Shown here piece by piece: positions 12,152 through 64,000 of a stretch of DNA of 64,000 nt. Made by a program: the position numbers and the translations under genes. The stretch is from the NCBI RefSeq assembly GCF_030758935.1, contig NZ_CP132333.1:1922992-1986991 (forward strand), written 5' to 3'. This DNA is from Geothrix sp. PMB-07. Lineage in GTDB: Bacteria; Acidobacteriota; Holophagae; Holophagales; Holophagaceae. Within the stretch, counting starts at the first letter, position 1; each line of letters begins with the position of its first letter. The notes under the pieces are model-generated. The model saw only the letters and a list, made by a program, of their open reading frames with translations, made no database searches and had not been told where the DNA came from.

Positions 12152-12687
12152 CACGAAACCAGCTTGAGGCGGGTGTAGCGGGCCCGCACGCGCTCCAGGT
12201 CCTCGCGGGTGATGGCGGACCAGAGGCGGGTGTCGCCGGGGGCGTAGAAATCGTTCACTTCTTCCACCACCCGGGCGCCCAGAGCGTTGTGGACGCTGCG
12301 GGCATCGGTGTTGCCGGGCTCCACGAGGAAGCGGCATTCGTCCACGTTCTCGTTGAGCAGCTTGGAGACCATGGCGCGGATGAGCAGGTAGTTCACCCGG
12401 CCCTTCTGGTATTCAGGATGTACGGCCAGGGTGGCGCAGTAGACCGTGGTGCCCGCCACGAAATTCAGCACATAGCCCACGGGCCGGTCGCCGTCGAGGG
12501 CCAGGAAGCACCAGTCGCGGTAGAGCTCGGTGCACAGCCGCAGATAGTGGGGGCAGAGCTCGCCGGTGCCATCGCCGGACCAGATTTCCGATTCCAGCCG
12601 ACGCAGATGGACGAAGTCCGAACTGCTCAAGGGGCGCACGGTGTAGCGGGCGCCTTCGGGATGGGGCGTGAGGGTCTCGATCGTCAT
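12151..12687 (-). CDS. GNAT-family N-acyltransferase, first gene of a six-gene run
   Basis: A 178-residue GNAT protein. The central strand-helix segment YCATLAVHPEYQKGRVNYLL occupies the acyl-CoA-binding place, with QKGRVN in the position of the usual Q/R-x-x-G-x-G/A loop. A GGGAG lies nine bases upstream of the ATG. It begins a minus-strand run of six tightly spaced genes (GNAT, PlsC, ureohydrolase, unknown, SpecificRecomb, DUF2911) with overlaps at the first junctions. The substrate is unknown; the adjacent PlsC gene allows an acyl-lipid role, but an acetyltransferase for small amines is equally possible given the ureohydrolase. Confidence 0.82.
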   Translation of the reverse strand: MTIETLTPHPEGARYTVRPLSSSDFVHLRRLESEIWSGDGTGELCPHYLRLCTELYRDWCFLALDGDRPVGYVLNFVAGTTVYCATLAVHPEYQKGRVNYLLIRAMVSKLLNENVDECRFLVEPGNTDARSVHNALGARVVEEVNDFYAPGDTRLWSAITREDLERVRARYTRLKLVS

Positions 12688-61618: not shown

Positions 61619-63340
61619 ATGAGCGGATTACTGATTGTCGGCGCCGGCGGCCATGGCAAGGTCGTCGCAGACATCGCCTTGTCCCTGGGGCAATGGGAGA
61701 ACATCGCCTTTCTGGATGATCTCTTTCCGGAATTGACGCAGGTGGGGGACTGGAAGGTCATCGGGAAGACCCAGGATGCGAACCGGTTCCGGGAGGACTA
61801 TCCCGAAGCCATCGTGGCCATTGGGGCCAACGCGCTGCGCCTCGAGATGCTGAACCGGCTGATCCGGGATGGATTCAGGGCTCCGGTGCTGATCCACCCG
61901 CATGCTTCTGTCAGTCGCTTCTCCACCATCGGGGCGGGCACGGTCATCTGCTCCCAGTCCGCAGTCATCATCGGCTCCCGCATCGGCCGCGGGGCCATCG
62001 TCAACACAGGGGCCTCGGTGGGGCATGACGGCATCCTTGAAGACGGCGTTCATGTGGCCCCCGGCGTGCGGCTGGCGGGCGGTGTGTCGGTGGGGGAATG
62101 CAGTTGGGTGGGGATTGGCGCCGTGGTCAAAGAGTGTCTATCCATCGGCAGCGGCGTGATGATTGGGGCTGGTTCCACGATCATCACGGATGTTCCGGAC
62201 GGGGTGACCGTGGTGGGGTCTCCTGCGAAGGTCATCGGCACCCGGGCGCCGAAGGCGGGCTCTGGAAAGACCGAAGGGGTCATCCGGATTCTGGATGCTG
62301 CCCTGGCGTCGGATTTTGACGAATGGGTGGCGTTCTGGCGGCGCTGGCCGGATCGGGAAGTTTCGGCCCATCCGGCCTACGTGCGTCTGTTCACCCATGC
62401 CCATGACCGCGTGGTGGGCGTGGTTCGTGAAACGGAAGCGGGAGGCATCTTGTTTCCCCTCATCCTCAGGCCGATCGCTGCCGAATCCTGGGCTGGAGGG
62501 CAGGAGCAGGCCTGGGATGCCGTCACGGCCTATGGTTACGGCGGGCCATTCACCTGGGGCGATGGTCGGGCGGGTGCAGACGCGTTCTGGAAGGCCTTCT
62601 CTGGGTGGGCGATGGATCAGAAGATCGTGTCCACCTTTGCGCGGCTCTCACTCTTTCCCGAACAGTTGTTGGATGCGCCCATGGAAACTGTGGTGGACCG
62701 CAGCAATGTCGTGCGGGCCCTGCAGCTGGATGAATCAGCCCTGTGGATGGATTACGCGCACAAGGTGAGGAAGAACGTCAACAAGGCCCGGCAGCTGGGG
62801 GTCGAGATTCGCCTGGATCCCGAGGGGGCAGAACTGGATGCCTTCCTCAAGATCTATGAATCCACCCTGGATCGCCGGGAGGCCTCCGGCGGCTACTTCT
62901 TCGGCCGACCCTTCTTTGAATCGATCATTCGCGATCTCGAAGGCCAGTTCATGTTTTTCCATGCGTGGCTCGATGGGCAGATTGTGTCCACAGAACTGGT
63001 GCTGGTCGCGGAGCGAAACCTCTATTCGTTCCTGGGTGGAACCTTGGCCGAGGCCTTCCATGCCCGTCCCAATGACCTGCTAAAACACGCGGTCATCGAG
63101 TGGGGACGACAAACGGGCAAGTCCACTTTCGTGCTGGGCGGAGGCTGGCAGGAAGCCGATGGGATCTTCAACTACAAGCTGGCCTTCGCACCCCACGGGG
63201 CCGTGGATTTCCGGGTGGGGAAGTGGGTGCACGATGCGGAGGCCTATGGACGCCTCCTGAAACGCCGGAGCGAGTGGGAGTCAGCGCAAGGGCGTGAATG
63301 GGTGCCGAAGGCGGGATTCTTTCCGGAATACCGGGGGTAA
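61619..63340 (+). CDS. fusion of a PglD/NeuD-like hexapeptide acyltransferase with a FemAB-like GNAT domain
   Basis: The 573-residue protein joins two enzymes. Residues 1-215 read as a PglD/NeuD-type sugar O/N-acetyltransferase: a Rossmann-like start (LLIVGAGGHGKVVADIAL) and a left-handed beta-helix with hexapeptide repeats (VGHDGILEDGVHVAPGVRLAG), ending ITDVPDGVTVVGSPAKVI. Residues 225-573 form a FemAB/BioF2-type double GNAT region (KVRKNVNKARQLGVEI, a central acceptor core, and LGGGWQEADGIFNYKLAF) known from lipid-linked or peptidoglycan-linked aminoacyl transfer. The start ATG is at 61619. The next gene is an ArnA-dehydrogenase-like enzyme, so a surface-sugar or lipid-A-like modification is plausible. 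Confidence 0.78.
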   Translation: MSGLLIVGAGGHGKVVADIALSLGQWENIAFLDDLFPELTQVGDWKVIGKTQDANRFREDYPEAIVAIGANALRLEMLNRLIRDGFRAPVLIHPHASVSRFSTIGAGTVICSQSAVIIGSRIGRGAIVNTGASVGHDGILEDGVHVAPGVRLAGGVSVGECSWVGIGAVVKECLSIGSGVMIGAGSTIITDVPDGVTVVGSPAKVIGTRAPKAGSGKTEGVIRILDAALASDFDEWVAFWRRWPDREVSAHPAYVRLFTHAHDRVVGVVRETEAGGILFPLILRPIAAESWAGGQEQAWDAVTAYGYGGPFTWGDGRAGADAFWKAFSGWAMDQKIVSTFARLSLFPEQLLDAPMETVVDRSNVVRALQLDESALWMDYAHKVRKNVNKARQLGVEIRLDPEGAELDAFLKIYESTLDRREASGGYFFGRPFFESIIRDLEGQFMFFHAWLDGQIVSTELVLVAERNLYSFLGGTLAEAFHARPNDLLKHAVIEWGRQTGKSTFVLGGGWQEADGIFNYKLAFAPHGAVDFRVGKWVHDAEAYGRLLKRRSEWESAQGREWVPKAGFFPEYRG

Positions 63341-63427: not shown

Positions 63428-64000
63428 GTGAAAGTCCTCATTCTCGGTGTCAACGGATTCATCGGCTCCCATCTGGTGGACCGCATCATGGCGGATACGG
63501 ATTGGGAGGTCTACGGCCTGGATCTGGGCGCCCACAAGGTGTCGGACCATCTGGCCAACCCGCGCTTTCATTTCGTGGAAGGCGACGTGACCATTTCCAA
63601 GGAATGGATCGAGTACCACATCAAGAAGTGCGATGTGGTGCTGCCCCTGGTGGCCATCGCCACGCCCAAGATCTACGTGACCGACCCCCTGCGCGTGTTC
63701 GAGCTGGATTTCGAGGAGAACCTCCGCGTCGTCCGGCAGTGTGTGAAGTACAAGAAGCGCGTCATCTTCCCCAGCACTTCCGAGGTGTATGGCATGTGCC
63801 CGGACGAGGAGTTCGACGAGTACGAATCTCCCCTGGTCACCGGGCCCATTCCCATGAACCGCTGGATCTACAGCACCAGCAAGCAGCTGCTGGACCGCGT
63901 GATCTGGGCCTACGGCTTCCAGCAGGGCCTGAAGTTCACCCTCTTCCGCCCCTTCAACTGGATGGGCCCCAAGCTCGACAGCCTCAACACTGCCAAGGAA
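63428..64000 (+). CDS. ArnA-type UDP-glucuronate decarboxylase/dehydrogenase (partial, runs off the right edge)
   Basis: The 191 visible residues closely resemble the dehydrogenase half of ArnA, which makes UDP-4-keto-pentose from UDP-glucuronate. The cofactor loop is [14 protein letters not shown]; other family segments are [53 protein letters not shown] and FRPFNWMGP. It starts with GTG (AGGAG five bases upstream) directly at the domain start, so the formyltransferase domain of ArnA is missing from the N-terminus. It may belong to a UDP-xylose/4-keto-pentose or an aminoarabinose pathway, with the rest beyond the edge. Confidence 0.9.

Follow-up and report, generated by a model that had tools for sequence, protein, structure and literature searches.

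A rare NeuD/PglD-FemABX fusion in Geothrix, a candidate bifunctional N-acyltransferase for an undecaprenyl-linked amino-sugar pathway

In the window analysed here, i.e., the whole 64,000-nucleotide stretch of Geothrix sp. PMB-07 DNA introduced above, positions 61619-63340 of the forward strand form a single open frame of 573 aa, with an ATG at 61619, a stop codon ending at 63340, and no internal stop. The encoded protein combines an N-terminal acetyltransferase domain of NeuD/PglD type, made up of PglD_N and the hexapeptide repeats of a left-handed β-helix, with a C-terminal GNAT domain of FemABX type (Table 1). Its gene is flanked by ppx and by arnA-DH, which encodes a stand-alone bifunctional UDP-4-keto-pentose/UDP-xylose synthase.

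Table 1. Window coordinates of the parts of the fused gene and of its downstream neighbour
Feature	Position	Strand	Basis or remark
N-terminal NeuD/PglD-type acetyltransferase domain, residues 1-205	61619..62233	+	TIGR03570 and PglD_N above cut-off
Linker, residues 206-226	62234..62296	+	equal length in both species, poorly conserved
C-terminal FemABX-type GNAT domain, residues 227-573	62297..63337	+	PF13480; profile against FemX
arnA-DH neighbour, runs past the window end	63428..64000	+	NF008872; taken to lie outside the system of the fusion

The original prediction of two domains in one frame is borne out, with neither a frameshift nor a stop between them. A sequencing artefact can be excluded because a separately assembled second species, represented by an Acidobacteria groundwater MAG (JACPYP010000011.1; our locus L005, the same place as genome G028), carries the same 573-aa fusion without gaps, at 87% amino acid and 84% nucleotide identity; the fusion is thus genuine. 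Synonymous divergence between the two species is ~0.6, and dN/dS amounts to 0.126 over the whole protein, 0.123 in the NeuD half, and 0.108 in the FemAB half, as opposed to 0.674 in the 21-residue linker, where identity is 62%. Both domains are therefore kept by purifying selection, with a loose joint between them.

The N-terminal half matches TIGR03570 (NeuD_NnaD) over its full length (residues 4-204 against profile positions 2-202 of 202; 209.8 bits, curated cut-off 160.8), with PglD_N (76.2 bits) and Hexapep (38.7 bits) also above cut-off, in keeping with the PglD/NeuD-like identity first proposed for it. Its best match among solved structures is 4m98, a "pilin glycosylation protein" (1.5e-45) that we take to be from Neisseria, followed by perosamine N-acetyltransferase, VioB, and UDP-N-acetylbacillosamine N-acetyltransferase. 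An N-x6-H-D motif at residues 129-137 (N129, H136-D137) aligns with the N...HD of 4m98, making H136 and N129 putative catalytic residues by alignment; the equivalent of H136 is presumably the catalytic base in PglD. The full-length profile match and this motif place the half among the PglD/NeuD/VioB/perosamine N-acetyltransferases, from which the fusion differs in its extra FemABX domain and in its location away from pglC- and pglE-type genes, a common context for the family rather than a strict requirement. The nearest unfused NeuD proteins occur in a relative of the same genus (G033), where two tandem paralogues lie side by side in a polysaccharide cluster (L035 318-1689), with 71% and 60% identity to the NeuD half of the fusion. 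In a NeuD tree of 24 rows, none of them dropped, one of these copies groups next to the fused pair (support 98/92).

For the C-terminal half, the proposed FemAB/GNAT identity was upheld by profile searches, with matches to PF13480 (Acetyltransf_6; residues 381-510, 67 bits, cut-off 22) and PF02388 (FemAB; 25.9-27.4 bits, cut-off 24). As a single sequence, the half matches FemX at 4.9e-6; a 13-row profile of its FemAB subfamily does so at 1.3e-18, also matching aminoacyl-tRNA-dependent peptide synthase and lipid II:glycine glycyltransferase, with only the C-terminal GNAT of the putative tandem aligned to FemX. By hand count on the alignment, K520 corresponds to FemX K305 (residue 305 of 1xe4), and the equivalent Lys is invariant in all 13 aligned subfamily relatives. 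A passage in a GNAT review suggests that FemX K305 possibly stabilises the charge formed on attack of the aminoacyl ester (PMC4964394). Equally invariant (13/13) is F-P-x-Y-R, mostly FFPxYR, near the C terminus (residues 568-572 in the fusion). Homology to FemX/FemA and retention of this Lys assign the half to the FemABX family; it scores far below cut-off for the XrtA/PEP-CTERM FemAB family (TIGR03019; 32.3 bits against 260.35). An AlphaFold model of the fusion, computed from an input of two sequences, had a mean pLDDT of 39. The profile match and the K305 equivalent liken it to Weissella FemX and the FemABX aminoacyl transferases; it differs from these in lacking a peptidoglycan context, in belonging to a subfamily of polysaccharide clusters, and in its C-terminal FFPxYR. 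The nearest unfused FemAB proteins are those of G225 (49-50% identity), a partial copy in G171 (58%), and a Deinococcus proteolyticus plasmid gene (42-44%), and the two halves thus have different nearest relatives. Elsewhere in the PMB-07 genome, a second Acetyltransf_6 protein is encoded in a polysaccharide cluster (L117 11175-12143; match at C1:79267-79638) that also contains a DegT gene and one resembling a formyltransferase; within the window, a 195-aa frame on the reverse strand includes a weak Acetyltransf_6 match (12322-12546; 34 bits).

The fusion is rare and specific to its lineage, and draws its modules from a known pathway. Matches spanning the full protein were found in 2/47 genomes of the genus, with all candidates scored, and in 2/396 genomes of the phylum, whether the query was the whole protein (best 3 candidates per genome scored) or the FemAB profile (best 5 per genome). 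At 80% coverage, none occurred among 72,556 plasmid or 50,697 phage records; the fusion was thus not found to be widespread in these sets, whose chromosomes are mainly those of its own phylum. A peptide-pattern scan of genome contigs, which detects close relatives only, returned one fusion (L005). A 563-aa frame in G187 was set aside as a candidate, its translation looking like read-through of an upstream overlap. No unfused, side-by-side NeuD-FemAB ancestor was seen among the relatives found. That the fusion had seemed unfamiliar from established pathways fits the open-licence literature searched, in which no paper on a NeuD-FemAB or PglD-FemAB fusion was found; combined keywords for PGT-PglD acetyltransferase fusions and ATP-grasp keyword combinations likewise returned none, and nothing useful was found on Geothrix lipid A or aminoarabinose.

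The original prediction had further linked the fusion to the ArnA-like gene that follows it on the same strand after 87 nt, an order shared by both fusion-bearing species. The neighbour scores 532.9 bits against NF008872 (cut-off 294) and is homologous to the ArnA dehydrogenase domain, without the formyltransferase domain. Beyond position 64000 lie genes for an SGNH-like hydrolase and two proteins that resemble ArnT below its cut-off (183 and 112 bits; cut-off 567). ArnB, ArnC, ArnD, and a formyltransferase were not read among the genes of this block. Of 36 same-genus relatives, 33 have copies of arnA-DH that are at least 91% identical over most of the protein (in a single piece in 30, divided between contigs in 3); G026 shows a contig-end fragment only and G010 and G020 have none, all three genomes being incomplete. 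Among these 33 relatives only G028 carries the fusion, and the conserved arn association expected of an L-Ara4N (Arn) component was thus not found. Upstream flanks of up to 1.5 kb (three shorter) from PMB-07 and 29 relatives contain the fusion in PMB-07 and G028 only, and none of the 28 relatives other than G028 has so much as a piece of it. All eight relatives read across 15 kb have an arnA-DH - ArnT-like - ArnT-like block without NeuD or FemAB; in the four of them whose translations were read closely, arnA-DH is preceded by a corA-like gene in three and a quinone-oxidoreductase-like gene in one. At ~30 nt 5' of the start of arnA-DH, a hexamer rich in TA (TAAACT, TAGACT, TAGAAT, and similar) with a GTTTG-like stretch was recognised by eye in all 28 readable relative rows, one further row being blank; a consensus scan did not list this element. 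Since it is kept whatever gene lies 5', arnA-DH is probably transcribed from a promoter of its own, and its proximity to the fusion appears to be an arrangement particular to this lineage. The link between the two was accordingly not sustained, and an operon with arnA-DH was rejected as the main reading: the neighbour belongs to the genus core, mostly without the fusion and with its own upstream element. The genus-wide block itself (window 63428 to L003 17984) pairs the UDP-4-keto-pentose/UDP-xylose synthase with two ArnT-like genes, in the absence of arnB, arnC, and arnD; in PMB-07 the SGNH-like hydrolase gene is interposed.

Genes of Pgl type are present elsewhere in the same genome. At C1:2405662-2407550, a DegT aminotransferase gene (pglE, from C1:2405662) is directly followed by the sole PF02397 match in the genome (pglC), and a 762-aa PglF-like dehydratase is encoded ~20 kb away; neither NeuD nor FemAB adjoins any of these genes. 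In NCBIfam the aminotransferase is nearest PseC and the dehydratase nearest PseB, both below every equivalog cut-off; the sugar is therefore bacillosamine-like by inference only and could differ. Orthologues of this pglE occur in 7/36 same-genus relatives, and across PMB-07 and these 36, members of the FemAB subfamily are found in 4/8 genomes with the gene as against 1/29 without it (Fisher p 0.005). Next to pglE/pglC lie NeuD in G002 (and in G207, outside the 36), ATP-grasp in G025, FemAB in G007, and a FemAB-ATP-grasp fusion in G003; in G033 and G013 NeuD is on contigs other than that of pglE, and in G028 the fusion lies away from pglE, as in PMB-07.

A wider association emerged from stand-alone members of the FemAB subfamily, of which 13/17 loci have at least two PglC/PglE/PglF relatives within 9 kb, compared with 0/17 for weaker Acetyltransf_6 hits (Fisher p 5e-6). 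The subfamily loci comprised the ten strong unfused rows of the phylum search, two same-genus loci, and five among the 25 plasmid records listed of 97; G143a and G143b share one locus, giving 12/16 when merged. The controls were 17 of 22 weaker rows (leaving out the second G394, G304, G371, the second G261, and G327), four of whose stretches were short owing to contig ends. A Cetobacterium plasmid has the order PglF-type dehydratase - LegC aminotransferase - sugar transferase - FemAB, and the Deinococcus proteolyticus plasmid the order sugar transferase - GNAT - DegT - FemAB, with a similar arrangement in G225; a Priestia plasmid provides a further example. The Azospirillum locus has radical SAM genes instead of Pgl neighbours, that of D. 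actinosclerus has a PglF match only, and those of G005 and G187b have no Pgl genes, but both start at contig ends. NeuD at 60 bits or more was found within 9 kb of none of the 17 loci, although a weaker NeuD-like gene (51 bits) lies after pglC in the G160 cluster; FemAB may thus frequently take the place of PglD instead of following it. In G143, one pglC lies between two different genes of the FemAB subfamily (L113 10798-13687), with a third member elsewhere in the genome.

Taken together, we propose, at a probability of roughly 0.6, that the fusion is a bifunctional N-acyltransferase for a bacillosamine-type, undecaprenyl-linked amino-sugar pathway. A PglF-type 4,6-dehydratase and a PglE-type aminotransferase, encoded elsewhere, would make a UDP-4-amino-4,6-dideoxy sugar, which the only PglC-type phosphoglycosyl transferase detected would load on undecaprenyl phosphate. 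The NeuD/PglD half would acetylate the 4-amino group of the sugar with acetyl-CoA. The FemAB half would most likely transfer an aminoacyl or acyl group, as a second type of decoration, to an amino group on that sugar or on the one added next; its donor would most likely be aminoacyl-tRNA, otherwise acyl-CoA, and its acceptor would be carried on UDP or undecaprenyl. The fused protein would thus serve, or choose between, two N-acyl decorations. In its more specific form, i.e., that the FemAB half is a tRNA-dependent aminoacyltransferase that attaches an amino acid to the first sugar, the lipid-linked one, at its 4-amino group, the proposal is tentative. We infer that the fusion partners pglF/E/C in trans, and likewise the substrates of the two halves, what the FemAB half uses as donor, and the sequence of events. 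The absence of NeuD near FemAB loci favours the two activities being alternatives over their being partners or acting in sequence, and in this respect counts against the proposal. So do the ~420 kb between the fusion and pglE-pglC, the stand-alone FemAB loci with a single Pgl match or none, and the naming of PglE and PglF by similarity. A further counterpoint is G033, which has the same pglE-pglC locus (81% identity) and, on a different contig, two NeuD copies that are unfused and belong to the clade of the fusion, with no FemAB detected in a genome that is 77% complete.

The genes around the fusion invite a different assignment, i.e., that together with the ArnA-like enzyme and the ArnT-like transferases it acylates a UDP-4-amino-pentose or a lipid-A-linked sugar in a modified L-Ara4N pathway. 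The 87-nt gap, the shared strand, the order kept in both species, and the ArnT-like genes downstream are what such a pathway would lead one to expect; however, other members of the genus keep these neighbours while lacking the fusion, arnA-DH keeps its upstream element whatever gene precedes, and the block yielded no ArnB/C/D or formyltransferase, all of which makes this assignment unlikely. It is likewise doubtful that the halves act on different glycans, each with its separate function, the fusion being a neutral accident. The general lack of NeuD close to FemAB-subfamily loci, the loosely constrained linker, and the different nearest relatives of the halves would agree with such an accident, yet the families of both halves are found beside the same pglE/pglC pair, and the fused state has been kept in two species despite their synonymous divergence. 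Finally, the FemAB half might be a regulatory or membrane-tethering module devoid of acyltransferase activity, along the lines discussed for part of Caulobacter HfsK, a FemX-like double GNAT that, as described in sections of PMC5362036, is a c-di-GMP binder whose association with the membrane depends on its C terminus. Selection on the FemAB half as strong as that on the NeuD half, together with the invariant Lys aligned with FemX K305, renders this very improbable.

As a bifunctional N-acyltransferase, the fusion would have its closest precedent, by analogy, in the logic of Neisseria PglB and PglB2. According to sections of two reports, these are mutually exclusive acetyltransferase/PGT (PglB) and ATP-grasp/PGT (PglB2) fusions of the bacillosamine pathway that yield diNAcBac or GATDH, and their N-acylating domain can be swapped as a module (PMC11130364, PMC6959607). 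The pilin glycosylation protein, as top PDB hit for the N-terminal half, adds to this likeness; the difference is that the Neisseria proteins join the acyl-modifying domain to the PGT, whereas the fusion couples a PglD-type domain to a FemABX-type GNAT and leaves the PGT to a gene of its own elsewhere. Closer to hand, the G003 fusion (L038 6326-8341) joins FemAB of the same subfamily to another domain of acyl-ligating type in one 671-aa frame directly after pglE-pglC; its partner is a PylC-like/ATP-grasp ligase rather than PglD, and the order is reversed, with FemAB first. HfsK, for which sections of PMC5362036 give indirect evidence of action on a Gram-negative surface polysaccharide (holdfast), provides a Gram-negative FemX-like protein thought to modify such a polymer, although it stands alone, binds c-di-GMP, and is likened to the fusion by description only.

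The role in surface-glycan modification originally suggested for this protein is thus supported, in the form of amino-sugar or surface-glycan acylation. More broadly, our analysis connects the Pgl-type amino-sugar pathway with a FemABX-like subfamily that was seen in at least four phyla, with FemAB, PglD, and ATP-grasp proteins sharing one type of gene neighbourhood and being fused in pairs. This wider point, in which FemAB would serve Pgl loci as a module for acylation, may be useful to specialists, and the presence of both putative activities on one polypeptide makes the fusion a compact test object. If the more specific form of our proposal is true, FemAB would be a third N-acylating module of Pgl-type pathways, besides PglD (acetyl-CoA) and the PglB2-type ATP-grasp, and the fusion would hold two alternative decorations, hence two versions of one surface glycan. 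Should the FemAB half aminoacylate the sugar, the acyl group would become predictable from gene content, and aminoacyl-tRNA would feed surface-glycan diversity outside peptidoglycan.
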